DNA from: a virus
Virus record (IMG/VR): IMGVR_UViG_3300025864_000021
Span: 1-47,602 of that record
Length of the DNA: 47,602 nucleotides
Direction: 5' to 3' (one strand)
Shown: positions 18,806 to 28,491 of the stretch, in pieces
Layout: every line of letters starts with the position of its first letter
Position numbering within the stretch: position 1 is the first letter of the stretch
Position numbers and translations under genes: made by a program
Notes under the pieces: model-generated
Told to the model about the DNA's origin: nothing
The model's database searches: none
What the model saw: only the letters and a program-made list of their open reading frames with translations

Positions 18806-19252
18806 ATGGACGCAACTTTGGCGGTTCTAACCTGGTTTGCTCAGGTGGCGGCTCTGGCAGCCGTGCTAGTCGGGCCAACCACGGCGGCGGTTGGCGTCGC
18901 CAAGACGCTGACCGAGGGGCGACTATCGACGCGGTACTACCCCGCGCTCTCGGTGACTGTCGGCACGACACTGGGCCTGGTGGTTGCACTGGCCGCGCCC
19001 GTCGATCTGTCAACCTGGAACATCGTGCTCGCTGGCGTTGTCGCGGGCTACTCGGCATCCGCTTTGTACGCTGGTGCTGCTGCTAGGGACGCTGCTAGGG
19101 TGGCCGCATCACAACCCACTCCGTCGATTATCGGTATACCGACTGTTCCAACGTCCCCAACGCCCCACCCTATCGACACGTATTTGCGCCCGATGGTCGC
19201 ATACGGCTCTGGCTCTGGCATGACAACTGGGGAGGTGCCACCTCGTGGTTAG
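18806..19252 (+). CDS. Holin-like membrane protein
   Basis: 148 residues from ATG 18806 (GAGG just upstream; a GTG at 18794 is a less likely start). Three hydrophobic segments are visible at about 4-26, 48-66 and 72-92 (ending YSASALYAGAAARDAARVA), followed by a Pro/Thr/Ser-rich hydrophilic tail of about 55 residues. This fits a class I-like holin with an unusually long C-terminal tail. It overlaps the endolysin start by eight bases, so lysis timing and enzyme production are tightly linked. Confidence 0.7.
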   Translation: MDATLAVLTWFAQVAALAAVLVGPTTAAVGVAKTLTEGRLSTRYYPALSVTVGTTLGLVVALAAPVDLSTWNIVLAGVVAGYSASALYAGAAARDAARVAASQPTPSIIGIPTVPTSPTPHPIDTYLRPMVAYGSGSGMTTGEVPPRG

Positions 19253-20714
19253 CACTCGTCTCGGCCCGCACGTCATCAATCCAACAGCGGACGCGCTCGC
19301 GTGGGCGCGTGTTGCGAGCATCGTCAAGGCGATCGACACGACCGAGCCGTTACGCGTCGCGCCTGACAACGCGGTGCGAGTGTTCCGCCACTACTTCGGC
19401 AATCAGGATATTAGACGCAGCGGTGCCGACATCGCCAGCGAAGTGCTGACAGCGCTCGGTGGATATCGTCATCCCCGACTTTACACGGAACTTTACAACG
19501 AGTGCGGTGCTGGTGTCTACAAACAGCAGACTCACCAGATCAACGAAGCCGCGCCCATCCTGCACGCTGCTGGTATCAAGCTATGCGGGCCGTGCTGGAG
19601 CACTGGTGACTACGGGGAGACGGAGTGGCGCTACCTGGTAGACAACACGCGAGGCGCGCTTGACGCGATCAACGTACACGCCTACATGTCGCCACAGTAC
19701 GGGCCGACTGAGTGGAACGCCTACCGTTATCGCAAGTTCTGGCGGATGGGTGATCCGCCAGTGATCTTGAGCGAGGTAGGTGAGGACGTGGTGCGCGACG
19801 CGCCAGGCAGTGGAATGGTTGGAGCTGGCGGTTGGCGCAAGAACGGCACTTCGCCACATGGCTACACCGGCGAGCTACTAGCCTACGACGTGGAGCTCGC
19901 CAAAGACGCCTATATGTTGGGTGCAACCGTGTTCACAGCAGGCGCACAGGGCGGCGACTGGAAGGACTACGACACAGACGGCCTGAACTTGGAGCGAGTG
20001 TTCACAGGCGGAACACCAGCGCTGACACCAACACCAGCACCAGCGCCACCGAAAGGAGCAACACCTATGATTAACTATCAGTCGCCTAATCACGAGGGAC
20101 CGCGCGCCTCGACGCTCGGTATCGTCGTGCACAGTACTCGCGGCGGCTCGGCGTCGCTCGAGCAAGAGCTCGACGGCACGATGGGTTGGGAGAATCGGCC
20201 AAACGGCGACTCGTGCCACGCGGTTGTCTCGCCAACCCGGACGGGGTTGCCAGTCCAGGATAACCTAATTGCTTGGCACTGTCGGACTCGGAATAAGACT
20301 CACCTCGGTATCGAGTTCTGCCAACCGCGAATCGGCGACCCGATACCCGACTCGGAGCTACAACGTGGCGCGCAGGTGTGTGCTGGCTGGTGTGTGAAGT
20401 ATCACATCCCGACCATCTGGGCGCTCAATGGCGGGTTCGCTCAGCACAAAGATTGTCCCGAGGGCCAAGCGGACGGGAAAAGCGATGTCGGCACGGGCTT
20501 CGATGGTGACAGGTTTATGGTGATGGTGAAGACGAGAATCGCCGAGATGACCGCACCAGCGCCCGTGAAGGTGGATGCTGTGACAGACGCCTTGAATGGC
20601 GCCTGGCAATTTGCGACTTTGGCGGAGGGGGCGCCGAACCTGGATGTGGCGCGCACGAACGCGACGCTCGCCAAGACGAAGATCGCCCAGTTGAAAGTTG
20701 CAATCGGCAGATAG
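19245..20714 (+). CDS. Two-domain endolysin: glycosidase-like barrel plus amidase
   Basis: 489 residues, GTG start with GGAGG nine bases upstream. The N-terminal domain (about 1-260) reads as a clan A glycosidase barrel: LYNE (N85-E86) fits the acid/base and ILSEVGE (E177) the nucleophile, with HAYMS between. A Pro/Thr linker (about 262-273) leads to an N-acetylmuramoyl-L-alanine amidase of the Amidase_2 type: GIVVHSTRG (H296), CHAVVSP (H325), HLGIEF, and QHKDCPE (H401) with an Asp near 414 as zinc-site candidates. Together they could cut both glycan and peptide links. No signal peptide, so release depends on holin. A separate start for the amidase lies at 20067. Confidence 0.85.
   Translation: MVSTRLGPHVINPTADALAWARVASIVKAIDTTEPLRVAPDNAVRVFRHYFGNQDIRRSGADIASEVLTALGGYRHPRLYTELYNECGAGVYKQQTHQINEAAPILHAAGIKLCGPCWSTGDYGETEWRYLVDNTRGALDAINVHAYMSPQYGPTEWNAYRYRKFWRMGDPPVILSEVGEDVVRDAPGSGMVGAGGWRKNGTSPHGYTGELLAYDVELAKDAYMLGATVFTAGAQGGDWKDYDTDGLNLERVFTGGTPALTPTPAPAPPKGATPMINYQSPNHEGPRASTLGIVVHSTRGGSASLEQELDGTMGWENRPNGDSCHAVVSPTRTGLPVQDNLIAWHCRTRNKTHLGIEFCQPRIGDPIPDSELQRGAQVCAGWCVKYHIPTIWALNGGFAQHKDCPEGQADGKSDVGTGFDGDRFMVMVKTRIAEMTAPAPVKVDAVTDALNGAWQFATLAEGAPNLDVARTNATLAKTKIAQLKVAIGR
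20052..20069 (+). promoter_or_regulatory. Internal ribosome site and in-frame ATG inside the endolysin
   Basis: AAAGGAG (20052-20058), eight bases, then ATG at 20067, in frame with the endolysin. The start falls exactly at the junction of linker and amidase domain, so it would yield a free 215-residue amidase. Confidence 0.7.
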
Positions 20715-20725
20715 CAGGAGGAGCG

Positions 20726-20914
20726 ATGAGACCAGTATGCAACGACTGCGGCGCGCAACTCGACGGCGGGCTGCGTGACGACACGACCGTCTGCCCGAAG
20801 TGTGGGCGGACCTGGGAGTTGTCGCCGGACCGGCAGCACATCAACGTGACGCTCGAAGTGCACGATGTGACGCATCGAGCGACACACATAATCGGAGGGG
20901 ATACCAGTGGCTAA
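20726..20914 (+). CDS. Small zinc-ribbon protein
   Basis: 62 residues with GGAGGAG upstream. Two CxxC knuckles (CNDCGAQL and CPKCGRTW) make a clear zinc ribbon in the first half; the second half is a short beta/His-containing tail (VTLEVHDVTHRATH). Role unknown; it lies between the endolysin and the accessory tail genes and overlaps the next start. Confidence 0.7.
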   Translation: MRPVCNDCGAQLDGGLRDDTTVCPKCGRTWELSPDRQHINVTLEVHDVTHRATHIIGGDTSG

Positions 20915-21275
20915 GTTTGATTCAGACGCGGTTCTCGACGGAACTCTCGACATCATCGCGGCGTGTACGGAGCTGTATATCTGTTCGGGCGCTGGCGCTC
21001 CAGCGGATCGGGCCGCTGCTATCGCAGCTTCGGGCATCGCGGCTCATACCCTGGCGTCTGGCGACTTCGCGAAGGCGGATGACACGTCAGGGAGGAAGGT
21101 GACGCTTGCCGCGCAAGCGGCACTCAGCGTCACGGCGAGCATCACGGCCACGCACATCGCGCTCTGCACGGGTTCGGTGCTGCAGGCAGTAACCACCTGC
21201 ACGTCGCAGGCGCTCACCAGCGGCAACACCGTTTCAACGCCAGCGTTCAAGTGGGGCGTCGCCGATCCTACCTAG
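20907..21275 (+). CDS. Putative tail-fibre or virion surface protein
   Basis: 122 residues, GTG start overlapping the zinc-ribbon stop, with GGAGGGG upstream. Rich in Ala, Thr and Ser with alternating strands (KVTLAAQAALSVTASITATH), as in small fibre-associated or capsid-decorating proteins. Two Cys (CTELYIC) lie near residue 20. No family recognised. It starts a run of beta-rich genes that ends with the large fibre protein. Confidence 0.55.
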   Translation: MAKFDSDAVLDGTLDIIAACTELYICSGAGAPADRAAAIAASGIAAHTLASGDFAKADDTSGRKVTLAAQAALSVTASITATHIALCTGSVLQAVTTCTSQALTSGNTVSTPAFKWGVADPT

Positions 21276-21902: not shown

Positions 21903-22646
21903 ATGGCGGCGCTGGAGGGCAGCCAGAAAACCATCACAACGACGCTGAACTACAACGAGACAACTGGGTCGCAGGTGGACCTCCCGAACGCCGAGCCTGG
22001 CACCAGCCAGGTAATCTACACTGTGGCATCGGGCGATCTGCCGACTATCTCGTCCGCGCCGTTCTCTACTGGCTACTATGCCGAGGTCTACGTCGGAGGA
22101 CGCAACTACTCAGGCGGAGCTGTGACCGTCAACTATCGCGTCATACTGAACGGCACAAGCCAAACCACGGGAAGCGCCTCGGTCGCGACCGCAACTAGCT
22201 ATTTCACTGTCAATGCAGGCAGCTTCGGGACTAATCCTCTTGTGGTTGGCGACGTTCTCGAAGTACGGCTCTGGGCCAGCGCCGCTACTAGCGTCTACTG
22301 GGATTATATGTGTCTTTCCGTCGTCCCCACTCGGATGTTCCCCGAGCGCCGTCGACGGATGCTCCTGGACTTCAGCGCGACGCAGGCTTACTCGGGTTTG
22401 CCCTCGGGCACGTCGGCTTCTGGGGTGGTTTCTGGTAGTTACCTGGGGCAAAGCACTACGTCACTCAATCCCACCGGGTTTAACGGCGCGATGGCTATCG
22501 TGCTTGACACCGCGAACGGGATTGCCCGCCAGGGCCGTGACACCGCCCAAGCGACGGCCATAACTCAGCACGCGACGACGCGGCCATATTACAGCTACAT
22601 CTTCTATCTCTCGCCGATTTCCTACCGCGTCGGGCCTGATCTCTAA
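21903..22646 (+). CDS. Beta-rich tail or fibre protein
   Basis: 247 residues from ATG 21903 (AAGGTGAG upstream; an in-frame TTG at 21879 overlaps the previous gene and is possible). A jelly-roll-like strand pattern fills residues 20-160 (YYAEVYVGGRNYSGGAVTV, GDVLEVRLWASAATS), followed by a more basic segment (RMFPERRRRMLLDF) and a Ser/Thr/Gly-rich end. It may be a fibre-tip or carbohydrate-binding component. The TAA stop overlaps the ATG of the first His-x-His repeat gene by one base. Confidence 0.55.
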   Translation: MAALEGSQKTITTTLNYNETTGSQVDLPNAEPGTSQVIYTVASGDLPTISSAPFSTGYYAEVYVGGRNYSGGAVTVNYRVILNGTSQTTGSASVATATSYFTVNAGSFGTNPLVVGDVLEVRLWASAATSVYWDYMCLSVVPTRMFPERRRRMLLDFSATQAYSGLPSGTSASGVVSGSYLGQSTTSLNPTGFNGAMAIVLDTANGIARQGRDTAQATAITQHATTRPYYSYIFYLSPISYRVGPDL

Positions 22647-23347
22647 TGGCAATCACCGACCGTGGCCGCATCGTCGTAGCCCCGATAACCGAGCAGGGGC
22701 GGCTCGTCATTGGGAGCCTGACGGAACTGGGCTACGTCATGGCTACGGCGGGCGGGGGCGGCGATACCGCTCTCACCGTCGCGGACAGCAGCCATGCGCA
22801 CTCGGCGGAGTCGCCCGCACTGACGCAGGCTCACGCGCTCGCGGTCGGCGACTCGGCGCATGCTCACTCGGTCGAGATACCGAGTCTGACGCAGGCGCAT
22901 AGCCTGGCGGTCGCCAACAGCGATCACGCGCACACGGCAGATGCGGTGCTGCTGACCCAGGCACACTCTCTGGCGGTCGCGGCCGCCGATCACGCTCACG
23001 GCGCTGAGGTTCCTGTTCTGACCCAGGCGCACTCGCTAGCAGTGGCCGACAGCGGCCACGCTCATACGGCAGATGTACCAACGCTGACTCAAGCGCATAG
23101 TCTGGCGGTGGTTGATTCGATCCATCTGCACTCAGCCGAGTCGCCAGCCCTGGCTCAGCTCCACAACCTGATAGTCGCTGACACGAGTCACGCGCACTCA
23201 ACGGATGCCGTGCTGCTGACCCAGGCGCACAACCTCACTGTCGCGGACCCCAGCCACGCGCACTCGGCGGACAACGTGACGCTTTTGACCGCGTCCCTCA
23301 CCGCCGCTCAAGTCGGCCCCAACATTCGCCTGAACTGGACGTTCTGA
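22646..23347 (+). CDS. His-x-His repeat fibre protein (short)
   Basis: 233 residues. After a 45-residue opening with two EQGRLVIG-like units come eight tandem copies of a 22-residue repeat, consensus L-x-V-A-D-S-x-H-A-H-S-A-E-x-P-x-L-T-Q-A-H-x, covering about residues 46-217. Each copy carries His-x-His and usually a third His in LTQAH. Such regular spacing with His-x-His pairs is known from T4 gp12-like trimeric fibres, where the pairs bind metal on the fibre axis; use of that model here is inference. The next gene, overlapping by one base, carries the same repeat, so the two products may co-assemble. Confidence 0.75.
   Translation: MAITDRGRIVVAPITEQGRLVIGSLTELGYVMATAGGGGDTALTVADSSHAHSAESPALTQAHALAVGDSAHAHSVEIPSLTQAHSLAVANSDHAHTADAVLLTQAHSLAVAAADHAHGAEVPVLTQAHSLAVADSGHAHTADVPTLTQAHSLAVVDSIHLHSAESPALAQLHNLIVADTSHAHSTDAVLLTQAHNLTVADPSHAHSADNVTLLTASLTAAQVGPNIRLNWTF
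22778..23300 (+). repeat. 66-bp coding repeats, block 1 (eight copies)
   Basis: Diverged tandem units of about 66 bp encoding the 22-residue His-x-His repeat. Codon differences between copies show the protein pattern is conserved more than the DNA. Confidence 0.85.
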
Positions 23348-26300
23348 TGGCAACAAGACTGTACCCGCTTAACCAGACGGCACCATACACTCCCGCGACG
23401 ATTCGAGGGACGTGGAATGATACCGCGTCCCTTGTAACTAAGAAGCTCGGCACGGTCAAATTCACTGGCGACGCGAATGCAAACGTCAGCAAGGCCGAGA
23501 CTTCTACCACCAACCTCTACAGCGTCGGGCTGCTGCGGTTTGTCTCCGACGCGCTGCCAACGGCGCGCACGCTCACTGCCAGCGACACGTTCACGATCTG
23601 TATGGGCTGCTACGAGTCGTCATCTTCCGCGAATATGTTCCCGAAGATTACGATCTACGTCACGGTTGGCGACTCGGACACGGTTCGCGGCTATTTGAAA
23701 CAAGATTGGGTTGGCGCGACCGAGTGGACAACGACCGCTGGGTACCGCTCGACCGGTGCGATCGCGCTCGCTGGAACAGTGGCCGCACAGGTGGGAGACA
23801 GGATAGTCGTCGTCCTTGGGTACAGCGCAGCGAACACCTCCGCGACCAGCTACGCCGGTCAGATGTGGTACGGTGCTGGCGCTGCGATGGCGGACGGCGT
23901 GGCCGCTGCTACGACTCATACGACGACGGCGGGCTGGATCGAGTTCAGCGGCAACAACATGTTCGCGCAGTCTCAGCCCGCGTCGCTGCCGATGAATCTC
24001 CTGAGCGATGTTGGAACCGTTCAAGAGGATTTTTCTAACGCTGCCGACTGGACGGTTGCCAACGGCTCGGCGGCAGACAACACAACGGAGTTTCGGACCG
24101 GCACTCAGTCTGTCAAAATCACGGGCACGACGGCCACTGACTGTACTGCGACCAAAACTGTCAACTGGGACCTCTCGGGCAACTTCCACCGACTGCAACT
24201 CTGGTACTACTTGCACAATCCAGCGGCGGACTACCCGGCGGGCGTTCAGTTCTACCTCAGCTCGACGACCGGCTTCACGAAGTCCTACTGGCAAGAAGCC
24301 TACAACACTTATTTTCGACAGGGCTGGAACGTCCTCACCTTTGACCAGAGTGACCTCATCAACGCTGGGACTGATAGCTGGGCGTCGGCACGAATCAGAC
24401 TCCGCGTTGAATTCACCTCGGCGACTGGCAAGGCGGCGGCGATCTCGTTCGACTCACTGACTATCAACCAGATCGCGGTTCCGGCCGTGATGCTGTACTT
24501 CGACGACGCGACAACCACGCAGTACACGGTTTGTTTTCCATATATGCAGAGCTACGGAATCAAAGGTACTATTTTCTGTGATACTAGCCAGATTGATCAG
24601 GCGGGTTCCCTTACCAGCGCACAGCTCGCCGCGGTAGACGCCGCTGGCTGGACGGTCGGAAACCATACGAACTCGGCATCGGGGCTCGGCGGTCAGACAG
24701 AGGCGGCTCAGGAAGCGCAGATACTTGGCGGCAAGACCGCGCTCACAGCGCTGGGGCTGACCAAGGGCGTCAACTACGTTGCCTATCCCTCGGGTACTTT
24801 CGACCTCAACACCGACATCGCGATGGCAAACCTCGGGATGCTGTTCGGGCGAACCACCGAACCAAGTGACGGTTCGGGGGAGATTCGTCAGGCGCTGCCG
24901 TGGGGTGACTGGTATCATGTCCCGACTAGGGCCTCAACCGCTCTAACGCTCGCCACTGCGAAAACCGCTGTAGACAAAGCGATTGTTGACGGCTATATCC
25001 AGCCGATCCATTTTCATAAGGTTGGCGCTGGTGACTGGACTACAGCCGACTTCCAGAGCCTAATCGATTATCTTGCCCTCAAGGGGGTCGCCTGCATCAC
25101 GGCAGACGACTTCTATCAACTCTCGCAAGGGCCGCTTGGTGGCACGACGCTCACCGTTGCCGATGCTGACCACGCTCACAGTGTCGATAGCCCGACGCTT
25201 ACCCAAGCGTATTCGCTCACCGTGGCAGATGCGGGGCACGCTCATACGGCTGAGACACCTGCACTAACGCAGGTTCACAGTCTCACGGTTGCGGATAGCG
25301 GACACGTTCACGCTGCCGAGAACGTCACGCTGGCATCGGATGTCGCGCTCACCGTGGCGGATTCCAACCACGCTCACACGGCGGAGGCCATCCCGACTCT
25401 GTTCTCAGACCTGGACGAGATACAGCGGTCGGCAGGCGGAGAAGATTCCTACGCCACAGTTCAGCACCTCACGGCGGACGTCGATACATGGGACGATGCT
25501 GGCCCGTTCACAGGCGGCACGACCTATTTTTATCGCGGACGGCACTGGACAGGCACCGAGGCTGGCGACTGGTCTGCATCGGCGAGTGTGACGTTCGCAG
25601 GCGCGATTGACCTTGTTGTAGCTGACGTAGCGCATGCCCATACGGCAGATGCACCGACGCTGACTCAAGCACACTCACTCACCGTGGCCGACGTAGCGCA
25701 CGCTTCTGCAACCGAGTCGCCCGTACTGACGCAGGCCCACTTGTTGGCGGTGGTTGATAGCAGCCATGTCCACACAGTAGATGCACCAGCGCTAACGCAG
25801 GCGCATAGCCTGGCCGTAGCCGATGCGAGCCACGGACACAGCGCGGAGTCGCCAGTCCTGACCCAGACGTATGTGTGGTACGTTTCGCGGAATGGCAATA
25901 ATGGCAGTGGCGGATCGTGGGCGAACGCCTGGAATGAACTTGACCAGATTGATTGGGCGAGTGTCCAACCGGGAGATCGAATCCTCATCGATGGCGGGAC
26001 GAGTGTCTGCTCTTCGCCATTCAACGCTCTGTCAACCACTCCATTCGATTTCTCATCGCCGAAGCCGGGACAGACTGGCGGCGGCGGGATGCTCTACAAC
26101 ACGACACTGACGATCGGCAAGTCGGGCACCACGGCTGCTCCAATCACGATTCAGCGAGCCACGGAATCAGGCCACAACGGGACGGCTGTCTTCTTCGGTG
26201 GCAGGCTCTCGAGCTTGCCCGCCTGCACTCAGTCGAGCTACACCAACCAGACCTCAGGGAATGTGCTGGCCGAATCAATTCGGGTGAATGCATATCACGA

Positions 26301-28491
26301 CGTTGTGATTGATGGGATGGATCGCTCCGGCATCGTCATCTACGGGGCCGAGGCCGGAGTCAATATCCACTCGACATCAGCGGCCTTTGTCACCCTGAGG
26401 AATATGGAGATATTCGACAACGGCGTCGCTCTGCACACTGTTGGGTTTGGCTGGTATTCCGACAATCCCGGCATCTGGATGGTAGGCCACGATCTTACCT
26501 TCGACCGAATGCTCGTCCACGACAACGGGCAAGACGCGATTCAGGATGGCACGAAGAACGGTGTTGGCCAGTATAACGTGACCATAACCGACTCCTGGCT
26601 CTACTGTAGCCGGGAGAACCCGTATCAGCCTGGATACGGTTTCAACACAGGGTGGGGTGAGATCGGCACTCATCCCGATGGCCTACAGACCTGGGATGGC
26701 GGGACTCAGACTGGCCTCACCGTTCGGAACACCGTCTTTGGCCCCTACCTCGGGCAAGGTTTCTATCCCGCCGACTCGGGCACCCCCGCCAAGTGGAACA
26801 ACGTCACACTCGACAATCTACTTTTCATGAATATTCTGTACGACAGCATCAATGCCGACGGCAACTCAACGACCAACTGGCAGATGCAGCACATTACGTC
26901 CTACAAATGGGGAGCCGCTCCTGACGGCATCAATGGCGCGCACCTCGACATGATTCGAGGGTCGGGTCACACGTTGACTGACTCGATCTTCGTGAACGCG
27001 GCCAACGATACGGGGCTGACAGGCGTGACTGGCTCGGGCAACTTCTACCACAACACCGATCCGGTGCCTGGTGGGACTAACGCTGATCCTCAGTTTGTCG
27101 CGGTTCTGGCAACTGGGACTCCCCACTTCAGCGACCTCCTGGCGGTGGACCTTACCCCTCAGAATGGAGCTTGTGCAGGTAAGGGATCGACACTGCACAC
27201 GCTCCAGGACATACTCGACCAGATCGACACTCTCAACCTAACCAACCACCTGATCATCGCCGACGTGGCTCACGGTCACTCTGCCGAGGCCGTGACTCTG
27301 ACTCAGGCGCATACGCTGTCTGTCGCGGATTCGAGTCACGTTCACTCGGCAGACGCACCGACCTTGACTCAGGCGCAGGTTCTGACGGTAGCCCCCTCTG
27401 ACCACGCTCATTCGGTAGAGGCTCCTGTTCTGACTCAGGCTCATACGCTGACAGTGGACGACAGCAGCCACGTTCACACCGCTGCCAATGTGACGCTCGG
27501 AGCAGCCGACACGTTGGTTGTCGAGGACTCCAGCCATGCGTCCTCCGTGGAGTCGCCGACGCTGACTCAGGCGCATAATCTGACGGTTAGCGATAGCAGC
27601 CACTTGCACTCGGCAGAGACTCCGACTCTGGTGCAGGCGTTTACCCTGACGGTAGCCGACTCGGGGCACGCTCATACGGCAGCATCACCGATACTGACTC
27701 AGGCGCACGTTCTGACCGTTGCTGACAGCGGGCACGCTCACTCAGCCGAATCTCCCGCACTAGTGCAGGCGTTCACCCTCGTAGTCGCCGATGTAGCGCA
27801 CTCCCACTCAGTCGATGCTCCGACCCTAGCTCAAGCGCACACGCTGACCGTCGCCGCCTCTACGCACGTCCACCAGGCCGACAACGTGACGCTAGGGACC
27901 GCTGACATGCTAGCAGTTGCGGATGTGACTCACGCACACTCGGCAGCGTCGCCAACACTGACGCAACTCCACAACCTGATAATCGCCGACGCGAGTCACG
28001 CGCACTCGGCGGACGCGGTGTTGCTCACGCAGGCGCACTCGCTGGCGGTGGCAGGCTCGGCACACGCGCACACGAGCGAGAACGTCACGCTCAGCTACGG
28101 TACGACCCTCACGGTTGCCGACGTAGCTCACGGTCACTCTGTCGAGGCTGTGACGCTGACTCAGAATCACGTGTTGACAGTCGCCGCGGCAACGCACGCG
28201 CATACAGCCGCGTCGATCGCGCTGACTCAGTGGCACGCGCTATTGGTTGCCGATCTCGCGCACGTCCATACCGCGGACTCGCCGTCGCTCGGGCAGGACC
28301 ATGTGCTCACGGTCGCCAATGTCTCGCACACGCTGACGCTGGATGGGGTCGTGGTAGTGGAGGGCAGCGCGATCGTGCCGTTCCGGGTGTTCGTTGTCCA
28401 GGCGCGGCAGTTGGCGTTCGTAGTAGCAGCGCGACCAACGACATTCTCGGTGCCGGCTCGCAATCTGACGTTTACGGTGGTGAAAAGATGA
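23347..28491 (+). CDS. Giant fibre protein: His-x-His repeats, deacetylase-like and beta-helix domains
   Basis: 1714 residues. Order: beta-rich N-terminal domain (about 1-220); jelly-roll carbohydrate-binding-like domain (220-378); NodB-like polysaccharide deacetylase-like domain (about 380-595) with MLYFDDA, VGNHTNSAS, YPSGTFD and IHFHKV in the expected order; four repeats (599-685); a fibronectin-III-like module (685-755, TTYFYRGRHWTG); four repeats (756-840); a parallel beta-helix (841-1296, YVSRNGNNGSGGSWANAW); about sixteen repeats (1302-1667); a beta-rich end. It probably forms a long adsorption fibre with surface-glycan enzymes. The second His of the deacetylase HxxxH-type motif is Ser, so activity is doubtful. 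Confidence 0.82.
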   Translation: MATRLYPLNQTAPYTPATIRGTWNDTASLVTKKLGTVKFTGDANANVSKAETSTTNLYSVGLLRFVSDALPTARTLTASDTFTICMGCYESSSSANMFPKITIYVTVGDSDTVRGYLKQDWVGATEWTTTAGYRSTGAIALAGTVAAQVGDRIVVVLGYSAANTSATSYAGQMWYGAGAAMADGVAAATTHTTTAGWIEFSGNNMFAQSQPASLPMNLLSDVGTVQEDFSNAADWTVANGSAADNTTEFRTGTQSVKITGTTATDCTATKTVNWDLSGNFHRLQLWYYLHNPAADYPAGVQFYLSSTTGFTKSYWQEAYNTYFRQGWNVLTFDQSDLINAGTDSWASARIRLRVEFTSATGKAAAISFDSLTINQIAVPAVMLYFDDATTTQYTVCFPYMQSYGIKGTIFCDTSQIDQAGSLTSAQLAAVDAAGWTVGNHTNSASGLGGQTEAAQEAQILGGKTALTALGLTKGVNYVAYPSGTFDLNTDIAMANLGMLFGRTTEPSDGSGEIRQALPWGDWYHVPTRASTALTLATAKTAVDKAIVDGYIQPIHFHKVGAGDWTTADFQSLIDYLALKGVACITADDFYQLSQGPLGGTTLTVADADHAHSVDSPTLTQAYSLTVADAGHAHTAETPALTQVHSLTVADSGHVHAAENVTLASDVALTVADSNHAHTAEAIPTLFSDLDEIQRSAGGEDSYATVQHLTADVDTWDDAGPFTGGTTYFYRGRHWTGTEAGDWSASASVTFAGAIDLVVADVAHAHTADAPTLTQAHSLTVADVAHASATESPVLTQAHLLAVVDSSHVHTVDAPALTQAHSLAVADASHGHSAESPVLTQTYVWYVSRNGNNGSGGSWANAWNELDQIDWASVQPGDRILIDGGTSVCSSPFNALSTTPFDFSSPKPGQTGGGGMLYNTTLTIGKSGTTAAPITIQRATESGHNGTAVFFGGRLSSLPACTQSSYTNQTSGNVLAESIRVNAYHDVVIDGMDRSGIVIYGAEAGVNIHSTSAAFVTLRNMEIFDNGVALHTVGFGWYSDNPGIWMVGHDLTFDRMLVHDNGQDAIQDGTKNGVGQYNVTITDSWLYCSRENPYQPGYGFNTGWGEIGTHPDGLQTWDGGTQTGLTVRNTVFGPYLGQGFYPADSGTPAKWNNVTLDNLLFMNILYDSINADGNSTTNWQMQHITSYKWGAAPDGINGAHLDMIRGSGHTLTDSIFVNAANDTGLTGVTGSGNFYHNTDPVPGGTNADPQFVAVLATGTPHFSDLLAVDLTPQNGACAGKGSTLHTLQDILDQIDTLNLTNHLIIADVAHGHSAEAVTLTQAHTLSVADSSHVHSADAPTLTQAQVLTVAPSDHAHSVEAPVLTQAHTLTVDDSSHVHTAANVTLGAADTLVVEDSSHASSVESPTLTQAHNLTVSDSSHLHSAETPTLVQAFTLTVADSGHAHTAASPILTQAHVLTVADSGHAHSAESPALVQAFTLVVADVAHSHSVDAPTLAQAHTLTVAASTHVHQADNVTLGTADMLAVADVTHAHSAASPTLTQLHNLIIADASHAHSADAVLLTQAHSLAVAGSAHAHTSENVTLSYGTTLTVADVAHGHSVEAVTLTQNHVLTVAAATHAHTAASIALTQWHALLVADLAHVHTADSPSLGQDHVLTVANVSHTLTLDGVVVVEGSAIVPFRVFVVQARQLAFVVAARPTTFSVPARNLTFTVVKR
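25141..25400 (+). repeat. 66-bp coding repeats, block 2 (four copies)
   Basis: Four His-x-His units between the deacetylase-like domain and the fibronectin-like module; the last two copies are degenerate after the His pair. Confidence 0.8.
25612..25868 (+). repeat. 66-bp coding repeats, block 3 (four copies)
   Basis: Four His-x-His units linking the fibronectin-like module to the beta-helix. One copy reads HASA, losing the second His. Confidence 0.8.
27250..28345 (+). repeat. 66-bp coding repeats, block 4 (about sixteen copies)
   Basis: The longest run. Most copies keep H-x-H; some replace the third His with Phe or Gln (VQAF, TQAQ), and one reads HASS. A final degenerate unit (NVSHTLTLDG) marks the end of the array. 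Confidence 0.85.

Follow-up and report, generated by a model that had tools for sequence, protein, structure and literature searches.

The window, by which is meant the whole stretch of DNA analysed, comprises a single virus record, 47,602 bases long. It carries a terminase, a portal, a head protein, a tape measure, a tailspike-like gene, a holin and an endolysin, and its gene content points to a temperate tailed phage. The endolysin (19245-20714) joins an Amidase_2 domain to an N-terminal part that resembles, by eye, a glycoside hydrolase. After the lysis genes comes a small gene encoding about 125 aa (20907-21275, + strand), here called the partner gene; then two adjacent genes on the + strand, A (22646-23347, 233 aa) and B (23347-28491, 1714 aa); these are followed by an opposite-strand integrase gene and the replication genes.

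Gene A consists of a short N-terminal segment and eight tandem copies of a 22-residue repeat (22772-23299), which start at residues 43, 65 and so on to 197, exactly 22 residues apart. Every one of them holds a His-x-His pair (HxH) at positions 8 and 10. The much larger, multidomain gene B has 24 copies in three blocks, again with a spacing of exactly 22 within each block: four at residues 602-689 (25150-25413), four at 756-843 (25612-25875) and sixteen at 1302-1653 (27250-28305). One copy in the second block and one in the third read HxS; the pair is HxH in the remaining 30 of the 32 copies across the two genes. A degenerate 25th copy, at residue 1654, is followed by a C-terminal tail of short R-x-hydrophobic strands (together 28306-28488). 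The initial annotation of this DNA had counted about 32 copies in two adjacent genes, eight in the first and some 24 in the second; the count stands, with the degenerate copy added, and the pattern then given, L-x-V-A-D-S-x-H-A-H-S-A-E-x-P-x-L-T-Q-A-H, agrees with the majority residues of the copies.

A hidden Markov model of the repeat, the seed of which contains the window copies, finds gene A at E 1e-49 and gene B at E 1e-117; the best of 200 composition-preserving shuffles reached E 0.12, which rules out a chance origin. Recent tandem expansion at the DNA level is also ruled out: the window copies share a mean DNA identity of only 56%, and Tandem Repeats Finder detected none in the repeat DNA. 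The copies are thus old ones, preserved as protein sequence.

The enzyme-like and binding domains that had been placed between the repeat blocks of gene B are in part elsewhere. The one solid assignment, a NodB polysaccharide deacetylase domain (Pfam PF01522, E 9e-15, 55.2 bits against a cut-off of 23.1) at residues 379-498 (24481-24840), stands before the first block. It belongs to a longer part, a beta-sandwich plus the deacetylase-like domain at residues 192-591 (23920-25119), that matches the turret protein gp31 of HFTV1 (PDB 8QPG, chain 8qpg_TC; phmmer E 9.5e-7). HFTV1 is an archaeal virus, and its turret, a capsid protein, forms trimers and combines a galactose-binding-like with a deacetylase-like domain (PMC12494034). 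The two proteins have in common the beta-sandwich and the polysaccharide-deacetylase-like domain; the HFTV1 chain has 413 aa, and it matches gene B only outside the repeats. In the alignment, read by eye, the FDD/DD and first His region is kept, but gene B has N-H-T-N-S-A where HFTV1 has N-H-G-Y-N-H, so that the second metal-binding His is apparently missing; the domain may therefore bind a glycan instead of cleaving it. Domains do lie between the blocks as well, at residues 690-755 (25414-25611) and 844-1301 (25876-27249), but neither has a match in the databases searched, PDB and family models included; the small one looks Ig/FN3-like and the large one parallel-beta-helix-like, by eye only.

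The initial annotation knew of no named family with this repeat, and sequence searches with the repeats of genes A and B against Pfam, PHROGs, NCBIfam and PDB chains likewise returned no match; a literature search for the text of the motif found none. A profile search with a 22-residue repeat model, which had been put forward as a check, shows that the repeat is far from private to this virus: 106 arrays with 1,260 copies were collected (median 11 per array, maximum 30), nearly all in uncultured phages, in a set that was widened with a model that does not require His at position 10 and that includes some near-duplicate loci. About 60 further repeat loci came from IMG/VR, which was scanned with protein queries as well as with a degenerate DNA pattern. 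Among 50,697 records of cultured phages, longer queries matched only Microcystis phage Mae-JY22; a tblastn search of the cultured phages with a consensus peptide gave nothing, for which low-complexity filtering may be responsible. One scan of GTDB genomes yielded a single locus, on a Zixibacteria MAG contig that carries a phage capsid gene. The N-terminal parts of the family proteins vary, some looking LamG-like (a weak match), and the C-terminal tails are often of short R-x-hydrophobic strands. Very large relatives exist (L007 5927-11632, 1,902 aa; L040 4327-8904, 1,526 aa), in which the repeats are irregularly spaced and separated by long stretches of other sequence.

The closest named family is PTR (phage tail repeat like, PF12789), examples of which are gp12 of Alteromonas phage R22Y and gp4 of V19. 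PTR too has a 22-residue period with one HxH per repeat, in phage structural proteins, and the HxH pairs of the window copies stand at the same 22-residue interval. One might then suppose that the repeat is a divergent branch of PTR in which a helix-type segment has turned into strand, as the common period, the HxH and a following acidic residue in similar register would allow. This is very unlikely. The PTR model of Pfam finds none of four repeat proteins even at E<=10, whereas four control PTR proteins score between 1e-11 and 2e-27; profile-profile comparison with PTR arrays (hhalign) gives a probability of 5.2%; and the helix-type G-L-x-x-x-L-x-x-K-A that lies between the HxH pairs of PTR is absent, its place taken by an alternating, strand-type L-x-L-T-Q-x-H-x-L-x-V-x-D. 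Membership in PTR is ruled out by the first two results. The families also differ in the pair itself, which is near-invariant in PTR (HxH in 45 of 48 repeats of the control arrays, with no swaps to Gln; this is a small control, and HxH was present in its seed) and exchanged for Q or L in the repeat described here. R22Y itself deserves a remark: its HxH repeats belong to PTR by Pfam match, and the 'six iron-binding domains' reported for it (L086 5949 onward; L085 2988-6182) are mostly PTR repeats, 22 residues apart. The published description likewise puts the four central HxH pairs of R22Y 22 residues apart, in passages that do not name the PTR family (PMC11705849).

What the histidines do is the question on which the two earlier suggestions about metal turn: that the His pairs have a metal role, and that they define a metal-stitched trimer. 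In long phage proteins such pairs have good precedent. T4 gp37 and gp12, R-pyocin fibres and phage spikes carry them, and in gp37, the pyocin fibres and the spikes HxH sites hold iron with six His (PMC6116203). By this analogy the shaft would be built of three chains that bring their HxH pairs together on the axis, where each repeat would bind one Fe or Zn; arrays with QxQ or HxL would be metal-free derivatives. The near-uniform HxH of the window copies fits, as do the 38 of 106 arrays that are fully HxH, the established six-His iron sites of trimeric fibres and spikes, and the proposal that the 22-residue-spaced HxH fibre of R22Y binds iron (PMC11705849).

The relatives fit it poorly. In the arrays reached via the partner gene, only 53% of repeats have HxH, the rest including QxQ (13%), HxQ (13%) and HxL (7%); in 14 of 44 such arrays HxH makes up 20% or less. 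Three arrays (L152 2907-4526, L153 3076-4695 and L117 6403-7848) have QxQ in every copy, and other arrays are mostly HxL or HxQ; the 22-residue framework is otherwise unchanged in them. HxH is thus not conserved in homologues, whereas a metal-stitched trimeric fibre would be expected to conserve it. The substitutions have arisen repeatedly: on the partner-gene tree, which rests on few alignment columns relative to its number of rows and may misreport the history of the repeat gene if both recombine, the low-HxH state undergoes 10 changes, nine of them forced by the starred branches (hence at least nine), and L098, rich in QxQ, groups as sister with L027, rich in HxH (support 100/96). Nor are the two positions lost alike, as a symmetric six-His site would have it: position 8 is His in 1129 of 1260 copies, position 10 in 940. 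In raw counts that ignore phylogeny, the residue at position 10 tracks that at position 12: Leu10 is paired with Ser12 in 53 of 56 copies, His10 with Ala12 in 714 of 861, and Gln10 mostly with Ala12 or Val12. This covariation (H/A, Q/V, L/S) suggests, as sequence evidence, one packed face shared by residues 10 and 12 rather than an obligatory pair of ligands. The PTR control, too, is without such swaps.

Repeated replacement of the paired His by Gln or Leu in relatives therefore argues for a structural rod that probably has no need of metal, and metal is probably not what makes the 22-residue repeat fold. The metal reading is thus weakened, the metal-stitched trimer is unsupported, and a metal-stitched shaft is unlikely; it is possible that HxH-rich arrays, including those of the window, bind metal all the same. 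T4 gp37, gp12, the R-pyocin fibres and the phage spikes have six-His sites on the trimer axis, and the window repeat differs from them in that its His is replaceable, and in being known from sequence alone. The implication is a wider one, as HxH fibre repeats are interpreted in the literature as binding iron (PMC11705849): to go by this family, an HxH pair recurring every 22 residues would not by itself be evidence of metal. The all-Gln arrays provide a built-in control, and would serve as natural controls for a metal-binding test.

For the fold of the repeat, two AlphaFold2 monomer runs gave pLDDT 63.5 and 59.4 and pTM 0.54 and 0.46, with only short strands in the repeats. Such low confidence for a single chain would fit an obligate oligomer, without proving one. 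Two features of the sequences favour beta strands: the coupled positions in the repeat, 10-12 and 19-21, are i, i+2 pairs, and where repeat gaps are irregular, insertions of two are preferred (24 aa in 64 cases, against 29 of 23 aa and 16 of 25 aa). A second way to picture the array is a single-chain beta-solenoid, in which each repeat forms one coil of a three-sided helix with ladders of His or Gln and folds without any oligomer. Coils of beta-solenoids are commonly about 22 residues long, the predicted strands group into about three segments in each repeat, and most of the weak Foldseek neighbours from the PDB are beta-helices (LpxD, tailspikes, pectate lyases). None of those neighbours is significant, however (all E >=0.44, listed TM-scores <=0.37), the viral library has no significant match either, and a larger ungapped alignment brought no rise in confidence. 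A firm monomeric solenoid is unsupported by the two runs, and the solenoid is on balance unlikely. A rod of intertwined chains has a parallel in the shafts of adenovirus and reovirus, where short beta-repeats of about 15 residues, the triple beta-spiral, form a long trimeric shaft; the resemblance is in the short beta-repeats, whereas the period differs and the triple beta-spiral repeat is not known to have a His pattern.

The partner gene travels with the repeat gene. Of 65 repeat loci, 45 have a homologue no more than 3 kb from the repeat gene and on its strand; the 20 without a match include the window, counted so only because it supplied the query, and 17 of the other 19 have less than 2 kb of upstream sequence. 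In the reverse direction, with the partner alone as bait, the repeat was found by a strict model in 48 of 77 new loci, and several of the remaining loci hold QxQ or HxL arrays that this model missed. In cultured phages the partner occurs in Mae-JY22 and, weakly, in one Octadecabacter virus. The protein has no Pfam match and no significant match in the PDB; PHROG matches are to 'virion structural protein' in two of 24 members (best E 5.5e-4) and to 'head protein' in one (E 0.0072). It is a candidate anchor, or base, or head-associated protein.

Gene order leans toward the head, as a hint only: in 22 of 25 loci with a recognised landmark (window included) the module lies on the same strand as a terminase, portal or capsid gene and within about 7.5 kb of it, a count biased by landmark queries that were mostly head genes. 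Three loci are exceptions: in L022 the tape measure and a gene for a minor tail protein flank the module, in L023 module and terminase are on opposite strands, and in the window the module comes after the lysis genes. Independent of gene order is the match of gene B to the HFTV1 turret.

The reading preferred here, to which we give a probability of roughly 55%, is that the products of genes A and B sit on the surface of the virion and that their shaft is made of an unnamed 22-residue beta-repeat, L-x-V-x-D-x-x-H-x-H-x-A-D-x-x-x-L-T-Q-x-H, and forms a rod that displays glycan-directed domains. Each repeat would probably contribute short strands near positions 20-3, 8-12 and 15-19; copies would stack into an elongated rod, probably an intertwined oligomer; the pair at 8 and 10 would be a structural ladder, residue 10 packing on residue 12, so that His could give way to Gln, or at position 10 to Leu, without loss of the repeat and with no metal required for the fold. 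The rod would space and display domains that bind or modify glycans, here the deacetylase-like one, and the small conserved partner protein would be a candidate for its anchor; we infer a role in contact with the host surface. The long shaft with glycan-active domains of the initial annotation is in this respect upheld, as a long repetitive virion-type shaft, of predicted fold, with a deacetylase-type domain.

A broader proposal, possible though tentative, is that these loci represent a virion module, widespread in uncultured phages and not yet described: a small conserved anchor and, fixed to the capsid and not the tail, a long beta-repeat fibre with a ladder that switches freely among His, Gln and Leu and with exchangeable domains that bind or modify glycans. 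Repeat and partner gene together would be a tag for such a module in many environmental phages; both are almost absent from the cultured-phage collection.

Other repetitive sequences also occur beside the partner gene. At L108 (8932-12366) a long repeat protein of apparently unrelated sequence, with a period of about 43 residues (L-A-G-A-I-A-A-Q-S-A-L-S-G-N), adjoins it, and at L124 (5366-5764) a 12-residue repeat, V-N-V-P-E-A-A-P-P-V-V-N, lies just upstream.
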